DNA from: Rivularia sp. MS3
GTDB taxonomy: Bacteria > Cyanobacteriota > Cyanobacteriia > Cyanobacteriales > Nostocaceae
Direction: 5' to 3'
Assembly (NCBI GenBank): GCA_019192545.1
Contig: JAHCMI010000048.1
Span: 1 to 64,000 of the forward strand
DNA: 64,000 nt
A model generated the notes under the pieces. The model worked only from the letters and a program-made list of their open reading frames with translations, was not told where the DNA came from and did not search any database. Positions 24,989 to 47,676 of the stretch are shown piece by piece. Numbering within the stretch: the first letter of the stretch is position 1; each line of letters opens with the position of its first letter. The translations under genes and the position numbers were made by a program.

Positions 24989-26836
24989 ATGAGTACTTTT
25001 TTAAAGTCGGGTAAAGAAGATACTAAATCAGATTTCTCAAGCTTGATTGATGTAGTTAACTACAGAGTCGAGAATCAGCCGCTAAACCAAGCCTATACTT
25101 TTTTGCAGAATGGGGAGAATGTTATTCAAGAATGGACATATGAAGAATTGCATTTACGCTCGTTAGCAATTGCAGCTTCGCTTCAAGATTTAAACCTAGT
25201 TGGGGAGCGTGCTTTACTTTTGTATCAACCGGGTTTAGATTTTATTGCGGCTTTTTTAGGCTGTATTTATGCCGGTATTATTGCGGTTCCTGCTTACCCA
25301 CCAAGGCGAAATCGAAATTTATCTAGATTACAAGCAATTGCTACGGATGCAAAAGCTAAAATTGTTTTAACTTCTTCATCTTTATTGGCAAACTTGCGTA
25401 GTGCTTCCGAGGATGAAAGCTTGGAAATAAATGGATTGCAGTGGTTGGGAACTGATGAATTAGACCGCAATTCAGCATCCAAGTGGTGTAAACCTTCAGT
25501 GAAGTCTGACGATATCGCATTTTTGCAATACACTTCTGGTTCAACCGGAAATCCAAAGGGAGTAATGATTTCCCACGGCAACCTTTTAGACAATTTGCGA
25601 ATTATACATGAATGCTTTGGACACACACCCACAAGTCAGGGTGTGATTTGGCTGCCACCTTATCATGACATGGGTCTAATTGGTGGAATTTTACAGCCAA
25701 TTTATGGTGGATTTCCAGTAACGTTAATGCCGTCAGTCGCGTTTCTTCAAAAACCAATACGCTGGCTACAGGTTATTTCTGATTGCAAAGCAACTACGAG
25801 TGGTGCACCAAATTTCGCTTATGAGTTGTGTGTAGACAAAGTAAAACCAGAACAGTTAGCAAGTCTTGATTTGAGTAGTTGGGAAGTAGCTTTTACTGGT
25901 GCAGAACCAATTCGTAGCGAAACATTAGAGCGTTTTGCTAAAACTTTTGCTTGTTGTGGATTCCGTAAAGAAGCTTTTTACCCTTGCTACGGTATGGCAG
26001 AAACAACTTTGATAGTTTCTGGAGGGGAAAAAAGAGAATTACCAATTACCTGCAAGATTGAAGATATTGCATTAGAACAGAACCTAGTTGTTAAAGTCGA
26101 TAGTTTACGCGAAGGTAGTCGAGAAATTGTTAGTTGTGGGCGGATTCCAGACGGAGTAAGTGCGGTTGTTGTCAATCCCGATTTGACTTGCTGTAGTTGT
26201 CAAGAAGTCGGAGAAATTTGGGTGAGGGGAGACAGCGTTGCCAAAGGCTACTGGAATTTGGAAGAAGAAACCCAAAAAACTTTTCATGCTTATTTGGCCG
26301 ATACAGGAGAGGGTCCTTTTCTACGTACTGGAGATTTAGGCTTTTTACAAGATGGTGAGCTATATGTTACGGGAAGGCTCAAAGATTTGATTATCATTAG
26401 AGGGCAAAATCATTACCCTCAAGATATTGAATTGACTGTTGAGGGAAGTCATCAAGCTCTAAGAAACGGCTGCGGAGCTGCATTCACGATAGATATTAAA
26501 GGTAAAGAAGAATTAGTTGTTGTTCAAGAATTAGAAAGAAGTTATCTACGAAAGTTAAATATTTCAGAAGTTGTTGGAGATATTCGACAAGCTGTGGTAT
26601 CCAATCATGGATTAAGGTTATTTTCAGTTGTATTAGTGAAAACCGCAAGTATTCCTAAAACTTCTAGTGGTAAGATTCGCCGTCGTGCTTGTCGAGATGC
26701 ATTTCTATCTGGAAATTTGGATATAGTCGATGACTGGAGCGAAAGTCCTCAGCACAAAGCTAAGTTTATCAGCGTCAATTCTGAAGTTGAGAGCGTTTTA
26801 CAACAAGTTGTGCAGCAAAGTCAAATTATCAAGTAG
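24989..26836 (+). CDS. Fatty acyl-AMP ligase (FAAL), cluster starter-unit loading enzyme
   Basis: A 615-residue ANL-superfamily enzyme. The AMP/ATP P-loop is YTSGSTGNPKGVMISH (about 180-195). FAAL hallmarks LPPYHDMGLIGG and SGAPNFAYELC are present, with YGMAETT (A5), LRTGDLGF (A7), GRLKDLIIIRGQNHYPQDIE (A8) and a C-terminal Lys in KTSSGKIRR (A10). FAALs activate a fatty acid as acyl-AMP and pass it to an ACP; the free-standing ACP at 27272 is the obvious acceptor. In cylindrocyclophane biosynthesis the same trio is CylA (FAAL), CylB (ACP), CylC (halogenase), and the order here is identical. A weak AT-rich hairpin follows at 26855-26870. Confidence 0.93.
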   Translation: MSTFLKSGKEDTKSDFSSLIDVVNYRVENQPLNQAYTFLQNGENVIQEWTYEELHLRSLAIAASLQDLNLVGERALLLYQPGLDFIAAFLGCIYAGIIAVPAYPPRRNRNLSRLQAIATDAKAKIVLTSSSLLANLRSASEDESLEINGLQWLGTDELDRNSASKWCKPSVKSDDIAFLQYTSGSTGNPKGVMISHGNLLDNLRIIHECFGHTPTSQGVIWLPPYHDMGLIGGILQPIYGGFPVTLMPSVAFLQKPIRWLQVISDCKATTSGAPNFAYELCVDKVKPEQLASLDLSSWEVAFTGAEPIRSETLERFAKTFACCGFRKEAFYPCYGMAETTLIVSGGEKRELPITCKIEDIALEQNLVVKVDSLREGSREIVSCGRIPDGVSAVVVNPDLTCCSCQEVGEIWVRGDSVAKGYWNLEEETQKTFHAYLADTGEGPFLRTGDLGFLQDGELYVTGRLKDLIIIRGQNHYPQDIELTVEGSHQALRNGCGAAFTIDIKGKEELVVVQELERSYLRKLNISEVVGDIRQAVVSNHGLRLFSVVLVKTASIPKTSSGKIRRRACRDAFLSGNLDIVDDWSESPQHKAKFISVNSEVESVLQQVVQQSQIIK

Positions 26837-27271: not shown

Positions 27272-27538
27272 ATGATTGCAGAAACTAAAAACTCGCTCCA
27301 TCAGAAAGATAAAGCCGAACATATAGAAGAATGGATAACTTCCTATGTTGCAAACTTGCTTGAAGTGGATGCAGAAGAAATTGATCCTACCATTCCATTT
27401 GACCGTTATGGCTTAGATTCCTCTGCTGCTGTTGGTATGACTGGCGATTTAGAAGACTGGTTGGGACGTGAGATAGATCCAACTATGATTTATGATTATC
27501 CAACTATTAAGGCTTTAGCTGAGTGCTTGAGTTCGTAA
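27272..27538 (+). CDS. Free-standing acyl carrier protein, probable partner of FAAL and halogenase
   Basis: An 88-residue single carrier domain with the phosphopantetheine attachment Ser50 in YGLDSSAAVG and the usual preceding LEVDAEEIDPTIPFDRYG. It lies between the FAAL and the CylC-like gene, matching CylB. The inferred role is to hold the activated fatty acyl chain while the diiron enzyme modifies it and then deliver it to the KS at 29214. The C-terminal IYDYPTIKALAECL is the standard helix-four region. Confidence 0.93.
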   Translation: MIAETKNSLHQKDKAEHIEEWITSYVANLLEVDAEEIDPTIPFDRYGLDSSAAVGMTGDLEDWLGREIDPTMIYDYPTIKALAECLSS

Positions 27539-27802
27539 ATTAGTATCAATAATCCTCAAGGTTGGGATGTATCTAGAAACAGAATTTTTTTCTATACTTG
27601 TTGTTTGATTTCGCTCGGTAATTTCTGCGCTTAATTTCTAATTTGTTGAGAAGGATTTAGAGTTGTATCTGCTAACTTTGTCTAAATTATTATTATAAAT
27701 ATGAGCAGATATAGATTACCTCTATAGTTTTATAGTTTTTAGAAAAGGTTAGTTATGCAGTAGTTCTGAAAGAACGATGTTTAATGCTTGAGGAAAAAAT
27801 TT
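27539..27802. other. 264-bp intergenic region before the CylC-like gene
   Basis: AT-rich with no gene. A Shine-Dalgarno-like GAGGA at 27790-27794 precedes ATG 27803 by 8 bases and supports that start over the upstream TTG at 27788. Confidence 0.45.
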
Positions 27803-29155
27803 ATGATAGCTACCCAAAAAAATATTTCGGGGCTGAAATCTCCGATAACTACTAAGCAAAAGTGTAATAAGTTAATCGACAAAACATATCAGAATAACAC
27901 CGATTCCGACTACACTGAAAAGATAGAGGAGTTGAGTAAAAGTTTCAAATATAGCGACAATAGTAATCATTATTGGAGCGAACCCGAACAATCTCTACTT
28001 TATGGCTCCCCACTTTATGAAGAAGCTTCTCCATCTCAAAAGTTAGCACTAAATCATCTCCACTGGTTTACAAACTACAACTACATTTCTGATTCCGAAA
28101 CTGAAACTGTAAATTTAAACCAGGTTACATCTAGCGTTTTTCAAGCTATAAGCGGTTACGAAACTCTTTCTGAAGAACTATCTTTTGAAACAGAGCAAGA
28201 ATATCATCATATAAATGCTTTTCGCAAAATAGGCTTGATGTCCGCAAATGCTTTGATAGGTAAAAAAGGACTAAGCGCTCTGTTTAAATGGAATTCTTAC
28301 AAATCCGCTTTGGGACATGACACTCTAACAACATATAAATACTATGGATTGCGCTCCATAGCAAAAAGTATGTCGGGTGATAAAAAACGAGAATATTCAG
28401 CTTATTTACAAAACTTAGAGCAGAAGAATAAGTACATTCTCAAAGCTCCTACAACAGGAATGTTAGGACGCTCCTTAGAATATTCTCTTCCTTTACAAAG
28501 TTTTTTCAGTTTTAATTGGGGTTCTGGTTCACCTTTTATGGCTTGCCAGTTCTATACAATACGTATCATTGCCAATTTGTATCTGAAGAATATGGAACAT
28601 TCCATTGCCAAGTACTTTAAGAAACTGGAGAAAAATGGCGAGTTTATTCCATCTCCAACAGCAGTTTCTCGTTACCATTTTTTAGACGAGTCTTTTCACA
28701 CTACAATTTCTCAGTTATTGGCAAAAGACATGTACAAAGCTTTTGCGAAACCAACAGCATACGAGAAATTTGTAGGTAATATGGCAATCTATATGATGCA
28801 ACGAGGTACTTTAGGTGGACTGTCGAGCGTATTACCGCATCGTTATTTTGCTGACGACTCTATGATTATGGAGCTAGTTTATCAACTGTTACAGGCTCCC
28901 ATATTTGGAATGTCTTCTCAAGAAGCCCTTGATTGGATGGAAAAATGCTTTTGTCAGGAACATGAAGGTTTACAGGTAGCTTCTAAAAATCGTCAGCGTC
29001 TTCTAGAAGAAATGCGACGATTTTTTGTAAATATAGATTATCTATGGACAACTAATCGAGAAATGCGCCTAATGGCTTCATTAGGTTCAATAGACAGAGC
29101 AGTTCGGAATAATAAAGAGACTTTTCGTCATTTTAGTCAATCAGTGATGGCTTAA
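27803..29155 (+). CDS. CylC-like diiron carboxylate enzyme, probable alkyl halogenase
   Basis: A 450-residue protein from ATG 27803. Two ExxH metal-ligand motifs typical of ferritin-like diiron proteins are visible: Glu133-His136 (QEYHHINAF) and Glu296-His299 (DESFHTTIS). The segment LNHLHWF to NQVTSSVFQAISGYETLSEEL fits the CylC/AurF-like fold, and the length matches CylC-type enzymes. CylC, BrtJ and the columbamide halogenases chlorinate unactivated carbons of ACP-bound fatty acyl chains. Position after a FAAL and an ACP and presence of a CylK-like gene in the same cluster support this call. I assign it from motif and context memory, without alignment; an N-oxygenase, desaturase or hydroxylase of the same fold remains possible. 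Confidence 0.78.
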   Translation: MIATQKNISGLKSPITTKQKCNKLIDKTYQNNTDSDYTEKIEELSKSFKYSDNSNHYWSEPEQSLLYGSPLYEEASPSQKLALNHLHWFTNYNYISDSETETVNLNQVTSSVFQAISGYETLSEELSFETEQEYHHINAFRKIGLMSANALIGKKGLSALFKWNSYKSALGHDTLTTYKYYGLRSIAKSMSGDKKREYSAYLQNLEQKNKYILKAPTTGMLGRSLEYSLPLQSFFSFNWGSGSPFMACQFYTIRIIANLYLKNMEHSIAKYFKKLEKNGEFIPSPTAVSRYHFLDESFHTTISQLLAKDMYKAFAKPTAYEKFVGNMAIYMMQRGTLGGLSSVLPHRYFADDSMIMELVYQLLQAPIFGMSSQEALDWMEKCFCQEHEGLQVASKNRQRLLEEMRRFFVNIDYLWTTNREMRLMASLGSIDRAVRNNKETFRHFSQSVMA

Positions 29156-29213: not shown

Positions 29214-31796
29214 ATGGAGCCTATAGCAGTAATTGGTATTGGTTGTCGTTTTCCGAAAGCCGCAAATCCTCAATCTTTTTGGCAGCTATTACGTCATGGT
29301 GGAGAAGGAGTAGTCCCCATACCAAGAGAAAGGTGGGACGTAGATACTTATTACAATCCTAATCCGGGCACCCCAGGAAAAATGAATGTACGTTGGGGTG
29401 CTTTTCTGGATAACGTAGATAAGTTTGATGCTGACTTTTTTGGCATGTCTCCCGAAGAAGTAGAGCATACAGATCCCCAGCAAAGGTTATTTCTAGAAGT
29501 TGCTTGGGAAGCTTTGGAAAATGCTGGAATAGTACCGAATTGTTTGGCAGGGAGTCAAACAGGAGTTTTTACTGGTATATGTACTATTGATTACCATAGA
29601 CTCCTATATAAAAACTTTGATTCTATCGGACCTTACAGCAGTACGGGGACAACTTTTTGCATTACAGCTAATCGCTTATCTTATCTATTAGATTTACGCG
29701 GTCCTAGTATGGCGGTTGATACAGCCTGTTCTTCGTCGCTGGTTACAATTCATTTAGCTTGTCAAAGTTTGCGTAACGGTGAGTCTAACATGTGTTTGGC
29801 TGGAGGAGTCAATCTAATTTTGTCTCCAGATTCAACTATTTCATCATCTCAAACTCGTATGCTTTCGACTCAAGGTCGCTGCAATACTTTTGACGCAAAA
29901 GCAGATGGCTATGTAAGGGGAGAAGGTTGTGGAGTAGTTGTACTCAAGCGACTCTCTGATGCGATAGAAAATGGGGATAATATTCTAGCGTTGGTAAGAG
30001 GTTCGGCGGTTAATCAAGATGGTTTAAGTAATAGCTTAACTGCACCCAACGGACTCGCACAGCAGGCAGTTATCCGTCAAGCTTTAGCTAATGCTGGGGT
30101 ACAACCGGCAGATATCAGCTATGTAAATACTCACGCTGTAGGTACTTCTATCGGCGATGCCATTGAATTTAAAGCTTTAAAAGCAGTTTTAAATCGGGGA
30201 AGGGAAGCAAATCAAACTTGCTGGGTAGGTTCGGTAAAGCCTAATATCGGTCATTTAGAAGCAGCTTCAGGGATGTCAGCTTTAATTGGAGTTATATTAT
30301 CGCTGCAAAATCAAGAAATACCTCCTCACCTGCACTTGGAAGAATTAAACCCCTACGTATCTTTAGAAAATACTCCTTTTGCTATTCCCACTAAGCTACA
30401 AAAATGGTGTCGAGGAGATAAAAGCCGTTTGGCTGGAGTTAGTGCATTTGGATTCGGCGGTACTAATGCCCATATTGTGATTGAGGAGGCACCAAAATCG
30501 GGGTTATTTAAGAAAGATCAACCAACAGACAAATTGCACTGCATGATTCTTTCTGCAAAAACCGATTCAGCTTTGAAACAATTAGCTCAAAGATATGCAG
30601 GTTATTTAGAATCACAGCCAAAAGTATCTTTGGCGAGTATTTGCTTTAATGCTAATACCCGAAGAACATTTTTTAAGAAACGTTTGTGTCTGATTGTCAA
30701 CTCAAAGCAACAGTTGCAGCAGCATTTAAGTAGTTTTGTTAATCAAATAGAAGATTCAGAAGTTATCAAAGGTGAAGTAAAAGGTAGAAAAAAACCCAAA
30801 TTACTATTTGTTTTTCCTTCCGAAGAATTTCAATATATGAGGATGGGATATCAGCTGTATCAAACCCAATCCGCTTTTCGTTCTGCATTTGATGAATGTG
30901 GAGAAATTTATCAAAGTCGTTTCAAAGAATCTCTAATAAAAGTACTTGATTCATCTAAAGATGAATTAGAAAATAGAGCGGATTATTCTGATTGTGTTTT
31001 ATTTGCAGTAGAATATGCCTTGGCTAAACTATGGCTGAGTTGGGGTATTAAGCCGAAAGCTGTAATGGGTTTTGGAGTCGGTGAATATGTTGCTGCGAAA
31101 ATTGCCGGGATTTTAAAACTCGAAGATGCTTTGAAACTAGTTATCGAACGCAGTCGTTTATTAGAAACTGGTGTAAACAGCGAAGAGATTCTCAGTCAGG
31201 AAGTTGATAAGATAAGTTTTTCTCAACCAAAAATCCCTGTAATCGTAAATAACAATCGGAAATTTCAAGAAATTGCGACTGCAAAATATTGGAAAAATCA
31301 TTTACCAGCGAAAGATAAAATGGCAGTTGAAAGCGATGCTTTAGCTAACTACCATATCTGTTTATCCGTAGGTGTAGAAACAACAGCTTTAAAATTTGAC
31401 GGGATTCATTTATCGAGCTTGTGTCAGGGAAATGAGTGGGGACAAATACTCCGTAGCTTAGGGGAATTAATTGTTAGAGGTACGATGATAAATTGGAACG
31501 AATTTTATCAAAATTATTATTCTCCCGTGCAGCTACCAACTTATCCATTTGAAAGACAGCGCTACTGGTTTAAGACTGCTAAAGATACATCTGAAGATGC
31601 AACGGATTTACAAGAAAAAACACAAGAAAAGTTATTTAGTTTGCTGCATCAATCGGAAGTTAAGCATTTAACAGAATTACTAGAAAACACCGGTGCATTT
31701 TCTCCAGAGCAGATTAAAATACTTCCTCAAATTCTAGAAACTTTAGCAAAAAATCATCAAGCAGAAATAAGTACAGTAAAAAATTTAGTTAAATAG
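29214..31796 (+). CDS. Type I polyketide synthase: ketosynthase with a decayed acyltransferase
   Basis: An 860-residue protein. The KS (about 1-425) is intact: Cys172 in DTACSSSLV, His307 in VNTHAVGTSIGDAIE (usually EAHGTGT) and His347 in NIGHLEAASG. The linker runs to ~520. The AT remnant begins LLFVFPSEEF where GQGSQ is expected. Its nucleophile motif reads GFGVGEYVAA instead of GHSxGE, so Ser is Gly621. About 100 residues that should carry the AFHSPLM-type His motif are missing between RSRLLETG and PKIPVIVNN. The post-AT LPTYPFERQRYWF remains. A C-terminal helical tail follows with no ACP in the chain. The KS should extend the acyl chain using the ACP at 31817, loaded by an AT in trans, or perform a non-extending condensation. 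Confidence 0.9.
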   Translation: MEPIAVIGIGCRFPKAANPQSFWQLLRHGGEGVVPIPRERWDVDTYYNPNPGTPGKMNVRWGAFLDNVDKFDADFFGMSPEEVEHTDPQQRLFLEVAWEALENAGIVPNCLAGSQTGVFTGICTIDYHRLLYKNFDSIGPYSSTGTTFCITANRLSYLLDLRGPSMAVDTACSSSLVTIHLACQSLRNGESNMCLAGGVNLILSPDSTISSSQTRMLSTQGRCNTFDAKADGYVRGEGCGVVVLKRLSDAIENGDNILALVRGSAVNQDGLSNSLTAPNGLAQQAVIRQALANAGVQPADISYVNTHAVGTSIGDAIEFKALKAVLNRGREANQTCWVGSVKPNIGHLEAASGMSALIGVILSLQNQEIPPHLHLEELNPYVSLENTPFAIPTKLQKWCRGDKSRLAGVSAFGFGGTNAHIVIEEAPKSGLFKKDQPTDKLHCMILSAKTDSALKQLAQRYAGYLESQPKVSLASICFNANTRRTFFKKRLCLIVNSKQQLQQHLSSFVNQIEDSEVIKGEVKGRKKPKLLFVFPSEEFQYMRMGYQLYQTQSAFRSAFDECGEIYQSRFKESLIKVLDSSKDELENRADYSDCVLFAVEYALAKLWLSWGIKPKAVMGFGVGEYVAAKIAGILKLEDALKLVIERSRLLETGVNSEEILSQEVDKISFSQPKIPVIVNNNRKFQEIATAKYWKNHLPAKDKMAVESDALANYHICLSVGVETTALKFDGIHLSSLCQGNEWGQILRSLGELIVRGTMINWNEFYQNYYSPVQLPTYPFERQRYWFKTAKDTSEDATDLQEKTQEKLFSLLHQSEVKHLTELLENTGAFSPEQIKILPQILETLAKNHQAEISTVKNLVK

Positions 31797-31803
31797 GTTA
31801 AAT

Positions 31804-31816: not shown

Positions 31817-32119
31817 ATGTCAGGAAAAGAACTATTAGCATTATCGGATTCAATTACATCAGAAGAAATACAAGATTGGTTGGCTTATCAAATATCCGCC
31901 CAGATAGGAATAGATGCAGACGAGATAGATATTCAAGCACCTTTTGATACTTACGGCTTAAATTCAATGCAGGCTATGAATATTTCTAGCTTGGGTAAAA
32001 AGCATCTAGGAATAAATTTTTCTCCTTTAGCAATTTGGAATTATCCTAATATTGCCTCTTTATCTAAATATCTAGTTGAAGAATTAGAATCATCAGAATC
32101 AGAAACTTTTGAAATTTGA
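31817..32119 (+). CDS. Second free-standing acyl carrier protein with acidic C-terminal tail
   Basis: A 100-residue carrier domain with phosphopantetheine Ser50 in YGLNSMQAM, preceded by IGIDADEIDIQAPFDTYG. It is probably the in-trans carrier for the KS at 29214. Beyond helix four it has an extra acidic tail (VEELESSESETFEI). The next protein starts with a TubC-type docking domain, a fold that in other assembly lines binds short C-terminal peptides of the preceding carrier-bearing subunit. I infer that this tail is the docking peptide. Confidence 0.92.
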   Translation: MSGKELLALSDSITSEEIQDWLAYQISAQIGIDADEIDIQAPFDTYGLNSMQAMNISSLGKKHLGINFSPLAIWNYPNIASLSKYLVEELESSESETFEI

Positions 32120-32144: not shown

Positions 32145-34001
32145 ATGAGCGTATCTGCACTATTGGAAAATCTCAAGCATCTTGATGTTAAGTTATGGGT
32201 TGATAATGACAAGCTCAAAATTAATTCTCCAAAAGGAGCATTAACTCAGCAATTAAAGTCAGATATCGCCAGTCAAAAACATGAAATCATCCGATTTTTG
32301 AATTCTCGTCAAGATTCTACCGCTTACACGGCTACGGGATTAAGTTTACAAACAATAGGACGTTTAATTGGTGGCTTTTGTCCGCAATTATCAACTGAAT
32401 TTAAGCCCCCTATTATCGAACCGGAGATAATGGCAAAGCAGTTGAAAGTGTCATTTAGACCATTGCCAAAGAGATATGATAAACAAGCTATCAAAAAATT
32501 TAGGGAAGAATTAAAGCTCAAATTAGAACAAAACGGTGTAAATATTATTGATTGGGAATTAGCTACTAAGGATTTTCGCTATCAAATTCATTTTCCGCTA
32601 ACAAAGTGGAATAAAAGCGTAACAATGAAGGTTGTTAAAGACAATATTGATGCAGTTATCGATGTTGAAAGACCACATTCATTTATTGGTAAAATCAAAA
32701 GCTTAGTTGCCGAGAAAGTTTATCAAGGTTATTCTAATTTCGTTTTGAAGAATAACAAAAAATCTGTTTCTACAATTACCAAGTTAATTGGTTGGGCAGA
32801 AGATAATGTCATGCAGCGTTTGGAAGATCCAACCTCAACCCAAGTTGTTTTACTTACAGAAATCGATAAAAACTTTGTCGATTCTCAAATACCTTATAAA
32901 GAAAAAATATCTATTGGTATCAACACTTTAGTCAAAACTTTTTCTGAAATTGTTATTGGTGTATCCGATGGTAATATTTCGATTTTGAATATGAATCTTT
33001 CCGATTCAATTTTTTCTAAAGACAGCTTTGACAACTTTGTCAAAAAATCTTTGATTCCCAAGCTTTACGTACCAATAGCACCTTTACCAATGAGCCGTTT
33101 TGCAGTTGGTAAATATAATCCGGAGCAGTCTGAATATGCATCAAAGTTAGTAAAATTGAGTCAAGAATTAGCCAAAACAGATTTATTTCCTTCTGGTTTT
33201 CAGCTTAGTGAAATTATTAACAGACAATCTCATCGAGACATTGTAGATTCTATTGTAAACGGTAGAACAGGTGTATCTTACGGATTTGTAGCATATGCAG
33301 AACCACCCCAATTCATTGGTAAACGTGAACTTGAACCGCAGGAATGGGAAAGCCTATCTGCTGTAGCTGGATTCAATGCTAAGGAAGTTCGTCAAAATGC
33401 GATTGGCAGAAGATACGTTAAAACCAAGATTAAAAATAGATTTGTCTACAAGCAACTTCCCGATATTTGGTTAGTATGTTCCCGCTCAGGTGCCAATAAA
33501 ACTGATTTGAATTTAGAAAATGATATTCTGCGAATGGGTTTGAAAGATAAACTTTATCTTGAATTACCTTCTGGTATTGACCAAAACAAAGTAGATATTA
33601 AACCTTCCTACGATACCTATGTGATGGTAGGCTTAGTTCTTTCTGCTGCTTTGTATACACCAGAATTAATCGAGAATGGTGCACCGATGATTCATTTTCA
33701 TGGTTATCCAGCAAACCAATGGTTTCACGAGAATGAATATTACACCGGTGTTAATAATCCTTCAGTTCCATGTGGAACTTATGAATCAGGGGTTTTCAAC
33801 TTTCTAGGTATTCATAATTTAGCAGATAGTCATGACAGTCAAATTACTTTGGCAACTCTTTTAGAACCAGACCACGGAACTAACATTGTCACTGGTGATT
33901 TAGATTATCTTTTAGATAGGTTACACAATGGTATTCAGCAAGGACAAATTGAATTAGGCGGAAAGCATTTTGCTTCTCTCAAAGAGTTAGCACAAGTTTG
34001 A
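32145..34001 (+). CDS. TubC-docking-domain protein with an unrecognised ~550-residue domain
   Basis: A 618-residue protein. Residues 1-52 (VSALLENLKHLDVKLWVDND, LKSDIASQKHEIIRFL) match the TubC N-terminal docking domain normally found on NRPS condensation subunits. The rest contains no NRPS or PKS motif I recognise. Conserved-looking stretches are IGWAEDNVMQRL, PIAPLPMSRFAVGKY, GFVAYAEPPQFIGKRELEPQEW, APMIHFHGYPANQWF, NNPSVPCGTYESGVFNFLGIHN and EPDHGTN. The His/Cys/Asp-rich C-terminal third could form an active or metal site. A strong ribosome-binding site (AAGGAGAAGG, 32132-32141) precedes the ATG. I infer it acts on the acyl chain held by the preceding ACP. No function can be named. Confidence 0.72.
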   Translation: MSVSALLENLKHLDVKLWVDNDKLKINSPKGALTQQLKSDIASQKHEIIRFLNSRQDSTAYTATGLSLQTIGRLIGGFCPQLSTEFKPPIIEPEIMAKQLKVSFRPLPKRYDKQAIKKFREELKLKLEQNGVNIIDWELATKDFRYQIHFPLTKWNKSVTMKVVKDNIDAVIDVERPHSFIGKIKSLVAEKVYQGYSNFVLKNNKKSVSTITKLIGWAEDNVMQRLEDPTSTQVVLLTEIDKNFVDSQIPYKEKISIGINTLVKTFSEIVIGVSDGNISILNMNLSDSIFSKDSFDNFVKKSLIPKLYVPIAPLPMSRFAVGKYNPEQSEYASKLVKLSQELAKTDLFPSGFQLSEIINRQSHRDIVDSIVNGRTGVSYGFVAYAEPPQFIGKRELEPQEWESLSAVAGFNAKEVRQNAIGRRYVKTKIKNRFVYKQLPDIWLVCSRSGANKTDLNLENDILRMGLKDKLYLELPSGIDQNKVDIKPSYDTYVMVGLVLSAALYTPELIENGAPMIHFHGYPANQWFHENEYYTGVNNPSVPCGTYESGVFNFLGIHNLADSHDSQITLATLLEPDHGTNIVTGDLDYLLDRLHNGIQQGQIELGGKHFASLKELAQV

Positions 34002-38597: not shown

Positions 38598-38654
38598 GGA
38601 AAAAGAATCTGAGTTGAAAATTTGATGAATTACACCAATTAAATCGATTTGTTT

Positions 38655-40118
38655 ATGCAACACATATCAGCTGAGGATAAATCAGCTACTTCGTTTGAAA
38701 ATGAATCTGAGATAGTTAAAGATAAGCTAGCTATACTTGGAGGCACACCAGTCCGTACTCAACCTTATCCAGAATGGCCGGTTGTTGATGAACGAGACAC
38801 TGAAGCTGTAACAAAGGTTATTCAATCGGGGCAGTGGGGAAGTACCCCTTATCCAGGAGAACAAACTGCCGCATTTGCAAAACAGTTTGCAGATATACAG
38901 GGCGGCGGTATTGCGGTACCAATGGTCAACGGTACCGTTACAATGGAAGTAGCTTTACGAGCAGCTAATATTGGTTGGGGAGACGAAGTTATCGTCCCTG
39001 CTTATACCTTCCAAGCAACCGCAACCGCACCAATGGCAGCCGGAGCTATCCCGGTGATTGTAGATATAGACCCCGATACATACTGTATTAGTCCCGCAGC
39101 AATTGAGGCAGCCATTACCGAAAAAACACGGGCTATTATCCCCGTCCATTTGGGAGCGCAAATAGCAGACATGGATGCTATTATGAAAATCGCCAAACGG
39201 TATAATTTGATTGTGATTGAAGATTGCGCCCACGCTCATGGTGCCCAGTGGAAAGGTAAAGGCGTTGGTACTATCGGTCACTTCGGTTCTTTTAGCCTCC
39301 AATCATCAAAAATTCTCACGACTGGAGAAGGTGGTTTATTGCTTTGCAGCACTCAAGAATTAGCTCAAAAAGTAGCCAGTATTATTAACTGCGGACGTTT
39401 TACCTTATTGGAAAAAAATATAGAGCAAGAAGCACAAAGCAATGGATTACCTCAACTAGTTAAAGAGTTAGCACAATTAAGCGCTCGGGAACAAGAACAG
39501 GTATTTGTTCTAGGAACAAACTACCGAATGACAGAGATGCAGGCTGCTTTGGGTAATGTGGCATTACAGCGTTTTCCTCAACAGGTAGAACAGCGAGAAG
39601 CTATGGTAGACTACTTAGAAAAACGTCTAAGTGAAGTACCTGGAATCAGATTATTAAAGCGGGATTCTCGCCATACAAAACGTTCGTTTTATCGATATAT
39701 CTTTGCTTTAGAGCCAAAAATATTTGGTGCAAAACACGATGAAGTATGTATGGCTTTATATCTAGAAGGTATTCCATGCAGTTCCGGTTATCAAGCCATG
39801 CACCGCTACGATTTGTTTCAACCCCAGCTATCAAGACTGCCAGTACCCAGCGCTTTCCCAGAGTATTTTGACTTCAAAAACATGAGCTTTCCCCAAGCAG
39901 AGCGAGCTTGCGATCGCGAAGCTGTATGGTTGGAAGAATCAGTATTTAGAGCCGGAAAGCAGGGAATTGATGATGTCATCAAGGCACTTACTAAAATTCA
40001 ATCTAATACAGGGGCTTTGGCAGTTGCAAAATCTGTTAAAAATTTAGCCGTCAAATCAATGCAGTTAAAACCTGTTAAGGCTTTGATGGATTTTTACGTT
40101 TCCCGGAGTTACAAATGA
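38655..40118 (+). CDS. DegT/DnrJ/EryC1-family PLP aminotransferase
   Basis: A 487-residue enzyme from ATG 38655 (a TTG two codons earlier is possible). AILGGTPVRTQPYPEWP opens the fold. The PLP-contact motifs are NGTVTMEVALRAANIGWGDEVIVPAYTF and IEDCAHAHGA, and the Schiff-base Lys219 lies in SLQSSKILTTGEGG. NCGR and YRMTEMQAALG follow. The details (LGGTP start, QSSK, NCGR) resemble enzymes that aminate keto-cyclitols or keto-sugars, such as scyllo-inosose aminotransferases, and AHBA-synthase relatives. A C-terminal ~45-residue helical extension is extra. It predicts an amino sugar or aminocyclitol in the product, perhaps formed after the oxidase at 41340 makes a ketone. Confidence 0.9.
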   Translation: MQHISAEDKSATSFENESEIVKDKLAILGGTPVRTQPYPEWPVVDERDTEAVTKVIQSGQWGSTPYPGEQTAAFAKQFADIQGGGIAVPMVNGTVTMEVALRAANIGWGDEVIVPAYTFQATATAPMAAGAIPVIVDIDPDTYCISPAAIEAAITEKTRAIIPVHLGAQIADMDAIMKIAKRYNLIVIEDCAHAHGAQWKGKGVGTIGHFGSFSLQSSKILTTGEGGLLLCSTQELAQKVASIINCGRFTLLEKNIEQEAQSNGLPQLVKELAQLSAREQEQVFVLGTNYRMTEMQAALGNVALQRFPQQVEQREAMVDYLEKRLSEVPGIRLLKRDSRHTKRSFYRYIFALEPKIFGAKHDEVCMALYLEGIPCSSGYQAMHRYDLFQPQLSRLPVPSAFPEYFDFKNMSFPQAERACDREAVWLEESVFRAGKQGIDDVIKALTKIQSNTGALAVAKSVKNLAVKSMQLKPVKALMDFYVSRSYK

Positions 40119-41347
40119 AAACCTCTCAATCATCTTCTGTTATTGAAAAAAAGGTGTTAATTGATGTTCTCGTGCTGCGAGGTGGTGGTGGACACTATGC
40201 TACTTACGATGCTTTACGTGCAATTGTTGAACAGAAGCAGCTACCTTGGGAGTTAAGCGTAACTTTTGCAGATACTATCGGAGAATCTTCCTCAGAGGAT
40301 AAGAAAGTTTCGGATGTTTCAAGTTTAGTAGGAAGAGCTTCAGATAATTTTTATGACCAAATTCAAAAGAACGGTTTGGGGTGGATTCATCTGCTAACTA
40401 TGCACCTGCATAAACTAATAATTAAACTCAAGCATAATATTGATGTTAGATTATTAAAGGAAAAATGGCATAAGCAACAGCCAGATTTAATTATTTCAGT
40501 AGTTCCTTTTCATAATAAAGCATTATGGGAAAGCGTTAAGGAACTAAAGAAAGAGATTCCGGTAGTTACTATTCTTGCCGATTTTGCTGATTCTCCCCCA
40601 GCTTATTGGATAGAGCCGAAAACAAAAAATTATGTAGTTTGCGGAACCCAAAAAGCTGTAGAGCAAGCGCAAGGTTTAGGTGTAGATAAAGAGCGGATAA
40701 TCAAAACTTCTGGTTTAATAATTCATCCCCGCTTTTATCAGTCAATTAAAGATAGCCATAACCAAACACCAGAAGATTACCGTCGTCATCAAAGAAAACG
40801 TTTAGGTTTAAGTCCAGACTGTAGAACTGGATTAGTCCTATTTGGAGCTAATGGTTCTAAAGTAATGTTAGATATTGCTAAACGTTTAGAATGCTTTCAC
40901 AAAAATCTACAGCTAATATTTCTATGCGGACGCAATCAAGAAGTAGCGACATTTTTAACCCAGCAGAAAAGTTTGCAGAAGCGCGTTGTCGTCACTTTTA
41001 CTAAGGATATTCCTTACTATATGCATCTTGCAGATTTTTTTATTGGTAAACCTGGAAATGTCAGTGTTAGTGAAGCTTTAGTGATGAATTTACCTTTAAT
41101 TGTAGAAAATAATTTTTTGACTTTACCGCAAGAAAGTTATGCTGCACAATGGATTCAAGATAATGAAGTTGGCATTACTATCTCCAGTTTTCGCCATATC
41201 CATAAAGCAGTAGAAAATTTTATTGAACCCGAAAATTTTGCTCGATACCGTAGAAATGTAATTGCTATAAACAATAAAGCTGTATTTGAAATTCCTGAAA
41301 TTTTGAATAATATTTTGATTAAAAGTAGAGATATAAATCATGAATAA
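40115..41347 (+). CDS. GT28-family glycosyltransferase, paralogue 3
   Basis: A 410-residue GT-B enzyme. Start ATG overlaps the aminotransferase stop by 4 bases (ATGA), so it is translationally coupled. Motifs are LRGGGGHYATYDALRAI, LADFADSPPAYWIEP (FADS replaces the FADC of the other two) and MHLADFFIGKPGNVSVSEALVM. It is clearly a duplicate of the gene at 37401. The pairing with an aminotransferase suggests it could transfer the amino-sugar unit (inference). Confidence 0.88.
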   Translation: MKTSQSSSVIEKKVLIDVLVLRGGGGHYATYDALRAIVEQKQLPWELSVTFADTIGESSSEDKKVSDVSSLVGRASDNFYDQIQKNGLGWIHLLTMHLHKLIIKLKHNIDVRLLKEKWHKQQPDLIISVVPFHNKALWESVKELKKEIPVVTILADFADSPPAYWIEPKTKNYVVCGTQKAVEQAQGLGVDKERIIKTSGLIIHPRFYQSIKDSHNQTPEDYRRHQRKRLGLSPDCRTGLVLFGANGSKVMLDIAKRLECFHKNLQLIFLCGRNQEVATFLTQQKSLQKRVVVTFTKDIPYYMHLADFFIGKPGNVSVSEALVMNLPLIVENNFLTLPQESYAAQWIQDNEVGITISSFRHIHKAVENFIEPENFARYRRNVIAINNKAVFEIPEILNNILIKSRDINHE

Positions 41348-42770
41348 AGTTTTAACTACTCCGAATAAAAATATTAAAAAAAAATCAAAAAAATATCAGA
41401 AACATCATTTTGATGAAAATCAAACAAAATCAAAACGTCAAATATTTAACAGCGCTGTTTCCCTTTATAGTTTTACTCCCGATAATGTTTATCATCCAAC
41501 TAAAGAATTAGAAATAGTTAAATTAATTCGGCAAGCGGCACAGAACAATCAGCAAGTTAGAGCAATCGGCTCTCTACACTCTGCTGCTCCTATCCCCGCA
41601 ACCACAGGCATTTGTATTGTTCTTGATAAATACAGAAATCTTGTCAAAATTGACGGTTCTTTAGTTACAGTACAAGCAGGAATGAAGATTTGGGAGCTAA
41701 ATGAAATTTTAGCAGAACATAACTTAGCATTACCTACCCTCGGAACTATTGTTCAACAAACTGTTTCCGGAGCTATTTCCACAGGTACTCATGGTGGCTC
41801 TCTTGATTGTAAAAGTCTTAGTGGTTACGTTCATTCTCTCAAGTTAATCAAAGCCGATGGTAGCGTTTTAGAAGTTGAGAAATCCCAAGATATCTTCAAA
41901 GCTGTTATAATTTCAATGGGATTATTAGGGATTGTTTCTACTATTACCTTCGATTGCGTTCGGGCATTTTCTCTACAGTCAAAAGTTTCTACCCTATCAA
42001 TAGATAATTTAATAGAGCAATTTGACGAAATTCACCACAACAATAAATATGTAGACATCAGATATTCACCAATTACAGATAAAGTCCAAATCGTAAAAAT
42101 AAATCCGACTTTAGAAGCAAAAGAAAACGGTGGCTGGCATCCCGTCAAGAAGTCAAAAATAGAGTGGCAGATAACAGATTCTATTAATAAACTGGCACAG
42201 CGGCTTTTCAATACTCACCGATTAAACTGGCTGCAAAAATGGTGTATAGACAGATATGATAAAACGCTATATTCCTCTCCCTACGGACGTAGCGATTTTG
42301 TTTTGACGCATTTTGACGCAACATCTGACGACTTAATCACCAACGGTGATATTAACCATAAAGAATTAGATCCAGTCGCTGATATGGAAATCGCCATTCC
42401 ATATTCCCATGCAAAAGCAGCTTTAACAACTTTATGCAGTCATTTTCATCAAACCCGGAAATATCCCAGCATGAATATTCATATCCGATGTTCCGCAGCA
42501 GAAGATTTCTGGTTAAGCCCAGCTTATGGAGAAGCAATCTGTTGGATTGAATTTTGGGAATATCCTTGTACTGGTAAATTTTTTAAAGAAATAGTTGAAG
42601 TACTCAAACCATTTAAATTTCGCTGTCATTGGGGAAAACAGATACCAGTAGAGCATGAATACTTAAAAAAGCAATATGAAAAATGGCAAGATTTTATTCA
42701 GCTTCGAGAAGATTGGGATTCTCAAGGTATATTTCTAAATCCTTGTTTGAAAAGCTATTTTTATTCTTAA
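41340..42770 (+). CDS. FAD-linked oxidase, gulonolactone/arabinonolactone oxidase type
   Basis: A 476-residue VAO-family flavoprotein whose start overlaps the upstream stop by 8 bases. The FAD-binding half has QQVRAIGSLHSAAPIPATTG, LPTLGTIVQQTVSGAISTGTHGG and the following SLKLIKADGSVLEVE. The C-terminal ALO-like substrate half has PSMNIHIRCSAAEDFWLSPA, RCHWGKQIP and a terminal WDSQGIFLNPCLKSYF. Relatives oxidise sugar lactones, alditols or cyclitols. In this operon it could provide the keto substrate for the DegT aminotransferase or tailor a sugar. Its ~35-residue Lys-rich N-terminus is unusual. Confidence 0.85.
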   Translation: MNKVLTTPNKNIKKKSKKYQKHHFDENQTKSKRQIFNSAVSLYSFTPDNVYHPTKELEIVKLIRQAAQNNQQVRAIGSLHSAAPIPATTGICIVLDKYRNLVKIDGSLVTVQAGMKIWELNEILAEHNLALPTLGTIVQQTVSGAISTGTHGGSLDCKSLSGYVHSLKLIKADGSVLEVEKSQDIFKAVIISMGLLGIVSTITFDCVRAFSLQSKVSTLSIDNLIEQFDEIHHNNKYVDIRYSPITDKVQIVKINPTLEAKENGGWHPVKKSKIEWQITDSINKLAQRLFNTHRLNWLQKWCIDRYDKTLYSSPYGRSDFVLTHFDATSDDLITNGDINHKELDPVADMEIAIPYSHAKAALTTLCSHFHQTRKYPSMNIHIRCSAAEDFWLSPAYGEAICWIEFWEYPCTGKFFKEIVEVLKPFKFRCHWGKQIPVEHEYLKKQYEKWQDFIQLREDWDSQGIFLNPCLKSYFYS

Positions 42771-42810: not shown

Positions 42811-44412
42811 ATGGAACCAACTTATAAACCGGAGCTTGCACAAAGTAAAGATTTGATTTATGCAGCATCCCCAAAGGAAAGTAAAAAAATCCGCAAGCTC
42901 AAGACTATATCATTAATAGGATTGTGTATTGCTCTGTTGATGATTAGCTTTGACGATACCGTAGTAAATATAGCGCTTCCCAAAATCCAAGCTGGTTTAA
43001 ATCTAGATGTATGGCAACTACAGTGGGTTCTTACTGCAAACGCGCTACCTGCGGCTAGCTTGGTTATGTCTACTGGCAGATTGGGTGATATTTACGGACA
43101 TAAAAAAATCTTTCTGTGTGGATTAATCGCATTTTTTATTGGTTCTTTAATTTGCGGTTTAGCTCCCAATTTAGAAATTTTAATTGTTGGTAGAGCTTTA
43201 CAGGGAATGGGGGATGCTGCTCTGCTGCAAGCATCTCTAACTATAATCGCCGACACCTTTCCAAAAGACGACGAAAAAGCTAAAGCTATTAGTATTTGGA
43301 CGGCAGCTTCTGGGGTTGCATTAGTTAGCGGGCCTGTTATCGGTGGGTTTTTGGTAGATAATTTTGGATGGGGGAGCATATTCTTTATCAATCTACCGCT
43401 ATCAATATTAGTTTTTTGGTTAATCTCGACAGTTGTCAAGGAGGTTAAAAACGATAACAAACAAGCTGTTGACTTACCTGGCTTTATTTTTAGTATAATC
43501 TTTTTAGCATCTTTGGTTTATGCTCTGACTGAAAGCGTTAAAATCAGCCATTTAAACGTTTTGTTATTTTTAGGTATCTCTGGATTTAGCCTTCTCGTGT
43601 TCTTACTGATTGAATCTCGCTCTCGAAATCCGATGCTGCCGTTAAGTTTATTTCGTAACATTACATTTACGACAGTGAATTTCGTTTCGGTTTTAGTCTT
43701 CTTTACCCTTGTAGGTTTACTTTTTGTTTTCAGTCTATTTTTGCAAGAAGTACAGGGTTATTCACCAGCATCTGCGGGTTTAAGATTTCTACCATTTAAC
43801 GGAGCTTTTATTACAGCGTCTCTTGTTTCTGGATGGTTAGTAGCCCGTATGGATTCGAGAAAAACAATTACTGTTGGATTAATTTTAGGCTGCATTGCCA
43901 CATTGATATTTTTTGGTATTGATGCACAAAGCGAATATAGAACCATCATGGGAGGTTTTATCGTCTTTGGCTTTGCTTGTGGATTAACAATTCCACCAAT
44001 GTCAACAGTGGCTATGAGTTCTGTATCTAAAAGTCAAGCTGGAATTGCTTCGGCAATACATGGTACCTGTAATCGTATTGGTTGGATTCTGGGAATTACC
44101 CTCCAAGGTAACATCTTGACACAGTATTTGAGCGCGGATTTTAGACAGACTTTGGTAAGTTGGGGGATACCTTCAAATCACGCAAATCACGATAAATTAA
44201 TTGCCGATGCTTTGCATAACTCAAGATTAGTTCCTGAAGAATTACCAGTTAGCATTTCTCAGTCTACCTATATTGAAGGAGTTAATCGTGCTTTTGTTTC
44301 TGGTTTTCATGCAGTAGTATTAGTTGCTTGTTTAGCTTTAATTTTCGGAACTGTATTAGTTGTAAAATTTGTTGCTTCAACTCCTAAAGAACTACCAAAT
44401 GAAATTTCTTAA
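42811..44412 (+). CDS. MFS drug-efflux transporter, DHA2 (EmrB/QacA) family
   Basis: A 533-residue, 14-TM permease. Motif D1 is MISFDDTVVNIALPKIQAGL, motif A GRLGDIYGHKKIF, motif B/C FPKDDEKAKAISIWTAASGVALVSGPVIGGFL. It closes the run of tightly spaced + genes and is the natural exporter or self-resistance pump for the cluster product. The divergent RND pump is a second candidate. Confidence 0.93.
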   Translation: MEPTYKPELAQSKDLIYAASPKESKKIRKLKTISLIGLCIALLMISFDDTVVNIALPKIQAGLNLDVWQLQWVLTANALPAASLVMSTGRLGDIYGHKKIFLCGLIAFFIGSLICGLAPNLEILIVGRALQGMGDAALLQASLTIIADTFPKDDEKAKAISIWTAASGVALVSGPVIGGFLVDNFGWGSIFFINLPLSILVFWLISTVVKEVKNDNKQAVDLPGFIFSIIFLASLVYALTESVKISHLNVLLFLGISGFSLLVFLLIESRSRNPMLPLSLFRNITFTTVNFVSVLVFFTLVGLLFVFSLFLQEVQGYSPASAGLRFLPFNGAFITASLVSGWLVARMDSRKTITVGLILGCIATLIFFGIDAQSEYRTIMGGFIVFGFACGLTIPPMSTVAMSSVSKSQAGIASAIHGTCNRIGWILGITLQGNILTQYLSADFRQTLVSWGIPSNHANHDKLIADALHNSRLVPEELPVSISQSTYIEGVNRAFVSGFHAVVLVACLALIFGTVLVVKFVASTPKELPNEIS

Positions 44413-44505: not shown

Positions 44506-44847
44506 ATGTTTTTATTCAACCCAATGACGAATTCTGATAATAATATTGACTTCATTACAGGCTTACCCGTACAAGATTCACGAGATTATGGTGTAGAAAC
44601 CGTTCCAGTACGTGATGTTACAGACCAGTTTTTAATCAATGAAAATTTGCCTAAAGGCGATAATCGCATCAATTACGCAGAGGGAATTGAATTAGATTTC
44701 GATGCACCAGTTGATACAGTAGATTACGGTCAAATACTTTCTAACTTAAGCAGCATTTTCAACTTTAATTCAGAAAATGCTTTCTCTTCAACCTCAAATG
44801 ATATGATGAACGATTTATTACTAGAATTTTTGTTTCCCGAATTATAA
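44506..44847 (+). CDS. Small protein related to the C-terminal tail of the CylK-like protein
   Basis: A 113-residue acidic protein with no signal peptide. Residues ~28-80 (VPVRDVTDQFLINENLPKGD, NRINYAEGI, VDTVDYGQILSNLSSIF) align with residues ~656-712 of the protein at 45490 (VSVQDVSSSFVTNEALPDGD, NRIDLTEGI, VVDYGKISSSLANIF) without gaps apart from a short loop. It is therefore either a free-standing copy of that tail domain or the last fragment of a former second CylK-like gene. The reading frame is intact with its own ATG; a second in-frame ATG lies at 44524. Function unknown. Confidence 0.7.
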   Translation: MFLFNPMTNSDNNIDFITGLPVQDSRDYGVETVPVRDVTDQFLINENLPKGDNRINYAEGIELDFDAPVDTVDYGQILSNLSSIFNFNSENAFSSTSNDMMNDLLLEFLFPEL

Positions 44848-44888
44848 CTTACAAAGATAGGTGAAATCTTTCAAAGAAAATCAAAAAA

Positions 44889-45489: not shown

Positions 45490-47676
45490 ATGGATGAATT
45501 TGAAATTAGTACTGCACTGCTAACACCTGCAAGCGACTTAGTAAATGGCGACCCAGGGGCAAAATTTGAACTTAATTTTGCTCGTGGTGGTAACGATACA
45601 ATATACGTTTTTGACCCTGGCTCTAGCAATAATCAAAAAGAGAATATTGACTTTCTTTTTGGCGATCTATTTGACAATTCTCCAGAAGAGTTTGAAATTA
45701 TTCTTAATATTCAGAGCAGTCAAGAAGGTGGTAATCCATTACTAATATTAGAAAGAGATATACCTTCGGTAGGAAGAGATAAATTTGTATTAGGAGACCA
45801 AAATCAACCATATTATACAAGTAATGTAGAAGATTTAACTGGTGATAACGCTCTGGGAACTGATTCATTTGCCGTAATCTATGATTTCAGTAAAGAAGAA
45901 GATAGCATCCAGCTAAACGGTGATAAGAAAGATTACAGATTAGTAGATGTAAATGGATTACAGTTAGAAGGAGTCGAACAGCCATTTTTCGGTAAAGCTT
46001 TATTTTCGGTACAGCAGGAAATTCCCGATTTAGTTGCCTTTATAGTTGCTAAACCAGATGTGGAGTTAAAGTTAGATAAAAAAGATAATTTCATATTTGT
46101 CGGTAAAAAGCCACCGAAGAAACCAGAAGAAGAAAAAAAGATTGGACAGTTAGGCACCACCGGCATCGATATTAGTTTTGATAGTACTGTAGATCCTGCG
46201 GGGAATATTTATCTTACAGGTTCTACAAGCGGTCCTTTACAAGGAAATTCTCAAGGTTTTACAGATGCTTGGGTAGCGAAATTTAACAGTAATGGCGACC
46301 AGCTAGCAGGTCAACAAATTGGTTCTTCTGCTGGAGAAACAGCTTACGAAATTGTTTCAGATAAAGACGGCAATTATTATTTAGCAGGAGCTACTGGTGG
46401 AAGCCTTGTTGATTCTAAGAAGTCAGCAGATCAAGATGCTTGGGTAGCTAAATACGATAGCAGTGGTAATCGGCTATGGGGTAGACAAATTGGAGCAAAC
46501 CAAACCGGAGGTTTTAGCAATAGCGGTTTTGGACTCGATGTTGACGATGCAGGTAATGTATATCTATCAGGATTAGCAATTAAAGAAAACAACGATAGAG
46601 AGACTTTTGATTTTAACGTTCAAGATGATTCTTGGATCGCAAAGTTCGATAGTAATGGTAATCAGCAATGGTTCAATCAAATAGGTGGACCATTTTTCGA
46701 TGAAAGTTATGATTTAGCAACCGATGCACAAGGAAACTCCTATATAATTGGTTGGACGCAGGGTTTAGTCGAAGAATCCGACCCATCTCGAAACCTATTA
46801 AAGTATGATGCATGGATTGCAAAATATAATACTGATGGTCAGCAAGAATGGGTTCAACAATTCGGGAGTGCAGACCAGGGTCTGGAATTTGCATGGGCTA
46901 CAGATACTGATAGCGAAGGTAATATTTATGTCACAGGCTGGACAACTGGTGAGCTTGGAACCAGAGATAAAGATTTTAAAGACTCCGAATCATACGATAT
47001 TTGGCTAGCTAAATTTTCACCCGACGGGACTCAACAGTACGTCAAACAATTCGGTTCAAAAGGCGATGATGGAACCTATTTGTCAGACATGGTGATAGAT
47101 TCCCAGGATAATATTTTTCTTACCGGATATACTAACGATAAATTAGGGAAAGGTGATAAAGATAAGGAAAGCTTTAACGCTTGGGTGGCAAGATTTGATA
47201 CTCAAGGAAATAACATATGGACTCAACAAATCGGAAGTAAAGAAAATGTTGATTATGCGACAGGCTTAAGTGTTGACGATTCCGGTAGGCTATATGTCAA
47301 CGGTTTTACCGAAGCATTTTTAGGTACCAGTAGCAATGGGGCTAACGGCTCGGGAATTGATGCTTGGTTTGCACAGTTGGATGTAGAGAAAGGCAAACTA
47401 CAGAAATTTATTGGCGAGTCGAAAAATGCTGTTAGTAGCGCGAATGCTGGTGTAGTATCAGTACAAGATGTTAGTAGTTCATTTGTGACTAACGAAGCAT
47501 TACCCGATGGTGATAACCGTATTGACTTAACAGAGGGAATTGATACAACCGTTAGTGTAGTCGATTACGGCAAGATATCTTCTAGTTTGGCTAATATTTT
47601 CGACCCGAGTTCTTCTAATTCTTTACCATCAGCTTTGACTGATGCAGTGAATAGCGGCACCATTGAAATTGATTAG
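45490..47676 (+). CDS. CylK/BrtB-like alkylating enzyme candidate: calcium-binding-like domain plus seven-bladed SBBP propeller
   Basis: A 728-residue protein with no signal peptide. Residues 1-210 form an acidic beta domain of the cyanobacterial hemolysin-type calcium-binding kind (GRDKFVLGDQNQPYYTSN, DSFAVIYDFSKEEDSIQLNG). Residues ~217-645 hold seven SBBP repeats, each with a GNIYLTGxT-type strand and a DAWVAKxDxxGNxxW-type strand, making a seven-bladed propeller. A ~70-residue tail matches the small protein at 44506. CylK, which joins alkyl chlorides to resorcinols, and BrtB, which joins them to carboxylates, have this same two-part layout. A CylC-like halogenase gene in the same cluster supports the call. 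Two-domain architecture is visible; the catalytic role is inferred. A surface SBBP protein is the alternative, but it lacks export signals. Confidence 0.72.
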   Translation: MDEFEISTALLTPASDLVNGDPGAKFELNFARGGNDTIYVFDPGSSNNQKENIDFLFGDLFDNSPEEFEIILNIQSSQEGGNPLLILERDIPSVGRDKFVLGDQNQPYYTSNVEDLTGDNALGTDSFAVIYDFSKEEDSIQLNGDKKDYRLVDVNGLQLEGVEQPFFGKALFSVQQEIPDLVAFIVAKPDVELKLDKKDNFIFVGKKPPKKPEEEKKIGQLGTTGIDISFDSTVDPAGNIYLTGSTSGPLQGNSQGFTDAWVAKFNSNGDQLAGQQIGSSAGETAYEIVSDKDGNYYLAGATGGSLVDSKKSADQDAWVAKYDSSGNRLWGRQIGANQTGGFSNSGFGLDVDDAGNVYLSGLAIKENNDRETFDFNVQDDSWIAKFDSNGNQQWFNQIGGPFFDESYDLATDAQGNSYIIGWTQGLVEESDPSRNLLKYDAWIAKYNTDGQQEWVQQFGSADQGLEFAWATDTDSEGNIYVTGWTTGELGTRDKDFKDSESYDIWLAKFSPDGTQQYVKQFGSKGDDGTYLSDMVIDSQDNIFLTGYTNDKLGKGDKDKESFNAWVARFDTQGNNIWTQQIGSKENVDYATGLSVDDSGRLYVNGFTEAFLGTSSNGANGSGIDAWFAQLDVEKGKLQKFIGESKNAVSSANAGVVSVQDVSSSFVTNEALPDGDNRIDLTEGIDTTVSVVDYGKISSSLANIFDPSSSNSLPSALTDAVNSGTIEID

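Follow-up and report, generated by a model that had tools for sequence, protein, structure and literature searches.

What kind of lipid would be made by the genes at 24989..47676 in a 64,000-nucleotide stretch of Rivularia sp. MS3 DNA, and are they a new type of biosynthetic cluster? This stretch (the window) belongs to a genome of 9.19 Mb (G000), in which the cluster lies on contig C117. The gene run pairs a homologue of the CylC-type halogenases with a relative of the alkylating enzyme CylK, and the initial annotation took it for an apparently new type of glycolipid cluster. This view is not supported, since a CylC/CylK glycolipid cluster, ngl, has already been characterised (PMC10849952), and its kinship with the window is clear. 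We see the window cluster as a genuine and conserved ngl-type variant. We hold, with moderate confidence, that it makes a chlorinated glycolipid and represents the nostochloroside (ngl) pathway in a related, shortened form. CylC/CylK glycolipid clusters being known through ngl, the new elements here are a collapsed polyketide synthase (PKS) and a proposed finishing enzyme of predicted aldolase fold.

According to PMC10849952, the ngl (pks3) cluster of Nostoc punctiforme ATCC 29133 comprises a fatty acyl-AMP ligase (FAAL), a CylC homologue, a PKS with a mutated ketosynthase (KS), a glycosyltransferase and NglO. Its products are chlorinated C21 glycolipids, the nostochlorosides, with a vicinal diol and 6-O-methylgulose, and NglO oligomerises them through ether bonds. 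To account for the odd C21 chain, the authors of that study put forward the hypothesis that a larger PKS product is cleaved. In the window, we assigned the open reading frames (ORFs) to families with Pfam and NCBIfam. A single run of forward-strand ORFs spans 24989..47676, all core ORFs are open, and the families from FAAL to propeller protein are those first claimed, glycolipid tailoring genes included:

24989..26836, + strand: FAAL, 615 aa (AMP-binding 6e-68, FAAL-type NCBIfam matches)
27272..27538, + strand: acyl carrier protein 1 (ACP1), a separate protein proposed to carry the activated fatty acid (PP-binding 9e-18)
27788..29155, + strand: CylC-type dimetal halogenase homologue, TTG start (residue set and tree)
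29214..31796, + strand: collapsed module, KS and dead truncated acyltransferase (AT) (Pfam, motifs, KS tree)
31817..32119, + strand: ACP2, terminal-type carrier with -FEI tail (PP-binding 3e-12)
32145..34001, + strand: docking domain (1-55) and predicted class II aldolase-fold domain (~325-618) (TubC_N; structure prediction)
34069..34902, + strand: short-chain dehydrogenase/reductase (SDR) (adh_short 1e-54)
35005..36174, + strand: GT28-type glycosyltransferase 1 (MGDG_synth 1e-9, diglucosyl-DAG synthase-like 3e-23)
36222..37388, + strand: UDP-galactopyranose mutase (UGM) (GLF 3e-70; PDB UGM 1e-113)
37401..38597, + strand: GT28-type glycosyltransferase 2 (MGDG-synthase/GT28-type family match)
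38649..40118, + strand: DegT aminotransferase, scyllo-inosose type (DegT 8e-89; PDB 5w71, 2c7t)
40115..41347, + strand: GT28-type glycosyltransferase 3 (MGDG-synthase/GT28-type family match, Pfam/NCBIfam)
41340..42770, + strand: ALO-type FAD oxidase, alditol/lactone oxidase family (ALO 8e-35)
42811..44412, + strand: DHA2-type major facilitator superfamily (MFS) exporter (efflux_EmrB above cut-off, 254 versus 230 bits)
44506..44847, + strand: C-terminal tail remnant from a second CylK-like copy, 113 aa (tblastn E 1e-13, 1,077-base stretch)
45490..47676, + strand: CylK/NglO-type alkylating enzyme, SBBP beta-propeller (E 3e-98 to CylK)

To find relatives, GTDB genomes were scanned with the docking protein (32145-34001), and the best 80 of 118 relatives were kept. 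Nine loci among these (L103-L111), from Komarekiella, Nostoc, Mojavia, Roholtiella, Aliterella and one Nostocaceae metagenome-assembled genome, have the collapsed core of the window, with docking proteins 66-69% identical to ours. ACP1, CylC, KS/AT, ACP2, docking protein, SDR and GT28 keep their order and strand in all nine, so the arrangement in the window is not a product of chance. UGM is seen in eight of the nine (all but L110). FAAL is likewise seen in eight (all but L109, which is cut by its contig end); the window FAAL is 63-71% identical to the FAALs of seven of these loci (68% to that of the L108 genome). A CylK homologue (57-66%) was found in 9/9 genomes within a few kb of the cluster by contig coordinates. 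The CylK genes of L107 and L108 lie on the opposite strand, as does the L108 FAAL. Most of the named organisms in which the nearest clusters occur belong to the Nostocaceae.

How far has the PKS been reduced? We compared KS motifs and built a KS tree from rows of 25 loci chosen among the best 80, plus the window (L114 gave no KS row; a fragment row, the first ORF of L122, was dropped beforehand). Extending modules carry HGTGT and GHSVGE in 14/14 cases. In terminal modules, a KS His is replaced in 15/15 (14 Gln, 1 Asn), and the AT serine is missing in all 13 that have an AT region. The collapsed modules, including that of the window, differ from both: the loop reads HAVGT, the His is kept and the AT is dead in 10/10. 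The window KS thus retains its Cys and both His, while its AT is dead, as claimed at the outset, because GFGVGEY replaces GHSVGEY at the serine motif. In the tree, the collapsed KSs of the ten genomes form one clade (support 100/100) which adjoins the first-module KSs of six clusters (96/88; five seen with UGM) and is separate from the terminal KSs (99/95). We rejected descent of the collapsed KS from a terminal KS on the basis of this placement. The first-module KSs of L122 and L128 group elsewhere, with those of larger modules of ~2,220 aa. ACP2 is 52-54% identical to the ACPs of three terminal modules. Given the KS tree and the type of ACP2, the collapsed module seems to join a KS of first-module origin to the dead AT and ACP of a terminal module; its AT part is about equally close to both sources.

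The relatives form a graded series, from two extending modules and a terminal KS (L113/G278), over one KS-AT-KR-ACP module and a terminal KS (L118), to a KS only (window, L103-L111). The extending modules of the ngl-type L113 measure 1581 and 2212 aa, and the second, which was scanned, holds DH, ER and KR domains. PKS modules appear to have been lost stepwise in this cluster family. Such loss, together with AT decay, could also mean that the cluster is degenerate and the lipid no longer made. The dead AT, the remnant of a CylK tail and a truncated GT4 gene just downstream (48216-48767) would fit decay, but the collapsed KSs share one fully supported clade and the same motif changes across ten genomes, and every core ORF is open. 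We therefore regard degeneration as highly improbable.

Is the halogen chemistry kept in such a reduced cluster? The CylC-type protein (455 aa as called from TTG 27788; the start may be ATG 27803 instead) has no sequence match in Pfam, NCBIfam or PDB (phmmer for PDB). It holds QExxH at 137 and HxxDExxH at 297, motifs which make up seven of the nine essential residues of CylC-type halogenases as given in PMC12101540. E270 sits at the position of NocO E252, and the gap of 30 residues to the Asp equals that between NocO E252 and D282. E104, Q137, E138, H141, E270, H297, D300, E301 and H304 are invariant in 22/22 aligned proteins; E104 is our putative ninth essential residue. Distant homologues keep eight of the nine positions and have Gln at the E252 position in 13/13 rows; Glu270 is thus the only discriminating residue. 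A second, distant CylC-like protein in the source genome (C36:27993-29105, L099; 29-33% identical) likewise has Gln there. In a quick tree of uncharacterised relatives and the ngl-type copy of G278 (SH-aLRT only), the window protein pairs with that of L108 (78% identical), apart from the other eight collapsed clusters; it is 47% identical to the ngl-type copy. This separate branch suggests that the halogenase was replaced in the lineage. An AlphaFold model of the protein (22 rows) reached a pLDDT of 47.6 and was not used.

The propeller protein points in the same direction. Its residues 25-643 align with CylK residues 98-663 (E 3e-98), so that the kinship to CylK proposed initially, and with it the CylC/CylK pair, was found. 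The N-terminal domain fused to the propeller, the Arg and Tyr for the halide and the Asp/Glu base are all present: R32, E405 and Y439 align with CylK R105, D440 and Y473 and with NglO R84, E428 and Y460, residues whose roles are described in PMC10849952. With Glu405 as its base, the protein resembles the ether-forming NglO; CylK has Asp there. All three residues are kept in 11/11 proteins of the collapsed group (the window protein and L183-L192, the latter being ten copies found in nine genomes). The full-length CylK alignment and the catalytic residues argue against a generic SBBP repeat protein; the SBBP proteins L078 and L079 are without the Tyr. By analogy with NglO, the window enzyme may thus substitute alkyl chlorides. 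The small ORF at 44506-44847 matches residues 656-721 of the window CylK-like protein. In cyanobacterium PCC 7702 (G334), we observed a CylK homologue (L072, 45%) with Arg, Glu and Tyr intact, while a CylC search of that genome gave no match.

Enzyme activity is, however, not readable from sequence, and the same glycolipid cluster might work without halogen chemistry, its CylC-like enzyme hydroxylating or desaturating and its CylK-like protein being structural. The separate branch of the window and L108 CylC proteins in the quick tree would agree with this. But the full halogenase residue set is kept, with Glu270 rather than Gln, and in 9/9 other genomes the cluster is found together with a CylK that has its catalytic residues; we consider this explanation unlikely.

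How, then, would the chain be finished? The docking protein consists of a TubC_N docking domain (1-55) and a remainder without Pfam or NCBIfam assignment, which had been described as of unknown fold. A fold search with the whole model now predicts a class II aldolase fold for the domain ~325-618. The matches include a pyridine dicarboxylate decarboxylase (2z7b) and YgbL, whose entry title reads putative aldolase/epimerase/decarboxylase. H517, H519, H577 and D490, a candidate metal-binding His triad and catalytic acid, are invariant in 40/40 members, in an order and rough spacing like those of FucA/RhaD. An ACP or terminal-KS ORF lies at most 2.2 kb upstream of the aldolase-fold gene in 80/80 loci (best 80 of 118), and an FEI tail ends 26 of the 30 upstream proteins whose tails were printed. 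In all nine collapsed loci, as in the ngl-type L113, the gene that follows the aldolase-fold gene encodes an SDR. Four further loci (L114, L117, L131 and L136, from Cyanomargarita, Fischerella and Pelatocladus) combine the aldolase-fold protein with an ACP, a CylK and either one CylC gene or two; no KS match occurs within the fetched flank, and they are apparently a further, PKS-free variant.

We propose the following pathway. FAAL would load a fatty acid onto ACP1, where the CylC-type enzyme, judged by its residues, would chlorinate a mid-chain carbon. The single KS would then transfer the chain to ACP2, or condense it there, and the ACP2 tail would dock it to the aldolase-fold protein. This protein could free the chain by carbon-carbon cleavage or decarboxylation, giving R-CO-CH2OH, and the SDR could reduce this hydroxyketone to a 1,2-diol. 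The three GT28 enzymes would attach sugars, one of them probably galactofuranose supplied by the mutase, the FAD oxidase and the aminotransferase may turn one hydroxyl into an amine, and the MFS pump may export the lipid. Finally, if it acts as NglO does, the CylK-like enzyme would swap chloride for an oxygen nucleophile and join lipids through ethers. In our reconstruction, the ngl C21 chain would arise from palmitate by two extensions and the net gain of one carbon, palmitate C1 bearing the 6-OH, which fits the reported structure. The same logic predicts for the window an aglycone of starter plus one carbon with no internal OH. Since the internal hydroxyl thought to be used by NglO is thus predicted to be missing, the CylK-like enzyme would need another nucleophile. 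This might be an oxygen of a sugar or of the diol or, where DegT is present (window and L108), possibly an amine.

Our tentative proposal, which we hold with less than even confidence, is that ACP-docked class II aldolase-fold enzymes are a new way of finishing chains: they would cut or decarboxylate the chain so that it ends in a hydroxyketone, which would account for odd-numbered 1,2-diol lipids such as those of nostochloroside type; the CylK-like enzyme of the window would then alkylate a nucleophile other than an internal hydroxyl. The conserved docking protein could then do the cleavage chemistry behind the odd C21 chain. Alternatively, the KS condenses normally with malonyl-ACP2 loaded by a trans AT, and the aldolase-fold protein is a beta-keto acid decarboxylase or a thioester-cleaving enzyme, leading to a ketone or secondary alcohol and not a 1,2-diol. 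The intact Cys and both His of the KS speak for this, as do the decarboxylase 2z7b and YgbL among the fold matches. It conflicts with the vicinal diol reported for the ngl product, with the homologous terminal genes of the ngl-type L113 and with the change from HGTGT to HAVGT in 10/10 collapsed modules. We find this alternative doubtful, if well worth considering.

Several observations weigh against a chlorinated lipid finished by an aldolase-fold enzyme. Eight of the nine halogenase positions are shared with distant homologues of no assigned activity. None of the 40 docking-protein members matches Pfam Aldolase_II, hhalign against 16 cyanobacterial Aldolase_II proteins gave no match, and structure prediction is the one basis of the aldolase assignment. 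CylC, CylK or UGM occur in the flank of just 25/80 aldolase-fold loci. The protein and an ACP are also found in clusters resembling polyunsaturated fatty acid synthases (L096-L098, L100, L102, many of L121-L182), with KS, PfaD and in some cases PKS_DH or a PapA-type acyltransferase (three loci Pfam-scanned), in heterocystous and bloom-forming cyanobacteria. No halogenase was seen in the flanks of these clusters, so the substrate need not be chlorinated. With a dead AT, any extender unit would have to be loaded in trans. In ngl-type clusters the terminal KSs have lost the His that the window KS keeps, so the final step may not be the same. UGM was not found in L110 within the stretches read, which, like the halogenase positions shared with distant homologues, lowers the odds slightly. 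Seven other genomes of the same genus have no aldolase-fold gene, which marks the cluster as accessory.

Which sugars would the lipid carry? UGM has a single match in the source genome and is 87-90% conserved across related clusters, above most neighbouring genes. The best PDB relatives of the DegT protein are the L-glutamine:2-deoxy-scyllo-inosose aminotransferases 5w71 (E 2e-69) and 2c7t (4e-69), in agreement with the cyclitol type named in the initial annotation, and we read its SSKILTTGEGG as a putative pyridoxal phosphate-lysine motif. The ALO-type oxidase matched an FAD-binding protein (3e-32) and xylitol oxidase (7e-30) in PDB. Among collapsed clusters, the DegT and ALO pair occurs just in the window and L108 in the stretches seen. 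The other collapsed loci scanned hold a GMC oxidase, a methyltransferase and a second SDR (L103), a fatty acid hydroxylase (L107) and a 609-aa protein without family (L110).

Upstream of the cluster (17120-23929), the window encodes a histidine kinase, a LuxR-type regulator, an RND pump and a protein of 530 aa that has no Pfam match; an RND-like pump (24% identical) also lies near FAAL in the genome of L108. The downstream GT4 fragment (48216-48767, 183 aa), whose profile matched from position 33 of 172, is probably a truncated glycosyltransferase.

How does the cluster compare with known systems? With cylindrocyclophane (CylC/CylK) and bartoloside (BrtJ/BrtB) clusters it shares the halogenase and alkylating families, by motif and CylK alignment. 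Unlike them, it has no type III PKS (CylI) or DarA/DarB-type dialkylresorcinol domain: as the initial annotation had stated, none was detected among the 26 ORFs scanned (14119-54251). A published description of this UGM-type cluster was not found in the open-licence literature (titles, abstract starts). The HT-58-2 cluster (L128), in a region listed as T1PKS with carbamidocyclophanes as similar known cluster in PMC8073705, shares the aldolase-fold protein, SDR, GT28s, MFS and an ALO domain (61%), but has an extending module and neither UGM nor CylK in its flank. Its ALO domain is part of an epimerase-ALO fusion (L128:14126-16417, 763 aa), a single polypeptide that could both oxidise and reduce a sugar. 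The UGM clusters with one extending module (L118-L120, L122, L123, L129; G101, G167) have UGM (87-89%), GT28s, MFS, aldolase-fold protein and SDR, and a CylK 55-59% identical to that of the window where the flank reaches. Unlike the window, they retain an extending module, which in L118, the locus scanned, is KS-AT-KR-ACP, and a terminal KS whose His is replaced. L108 (Nostocaceae cyanobacterium MO_167.B47) resembles the window in its CylC (78%), DegT (76%), GT3 (76%), ALO (68%) and UGM (90%), with identical gene order from ACP1 to ALO, but its FAAL and two full CylK copies are on the opposite strand.

With ngl itself, the window shares FAAL, a CylC homologue, a PKS KS, a glycosyltransferase and a CylK with Arg, Glu and Tyr. 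The Desmonostoc geniculatum locus L113/G278 is of the ngl type, its CylK having the R/E/Y spacing of 344 and 376 given for NglO and a C-terminal RTX-like region. After its PKS genes follow an aldolase-fold protein (60%), SDR (60%), GT4, two genes with methyltransferase domains and CylK. Common to this locus and the window are FAAL, ACP, CylC, terminal ACP, aldolase-fold protein, SDR and CylK. The window, however, is without the two extending modules and the inactivated terminal KS, having a single KS of first-module descent; UGM, three GT28s, DegT, ALO and MFS are added, and its CylK has no RTX-like tail. The family thus appears to combine stepwise loss of PKS modules with replacement of the halogenase in one lineage. 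It also appears to retain a CylK-type enzyme even though the nucleophile presumed for that enzyme is predicted to be lost, so that one can test which nucleophile enzymes of this kind choose. Of the PKS versions encountered in this analysis, the collapsed cluster is the smallest, with FAAL, two ACPs, a halogenase, a KS, an aldolase-fold protein and an SDR.

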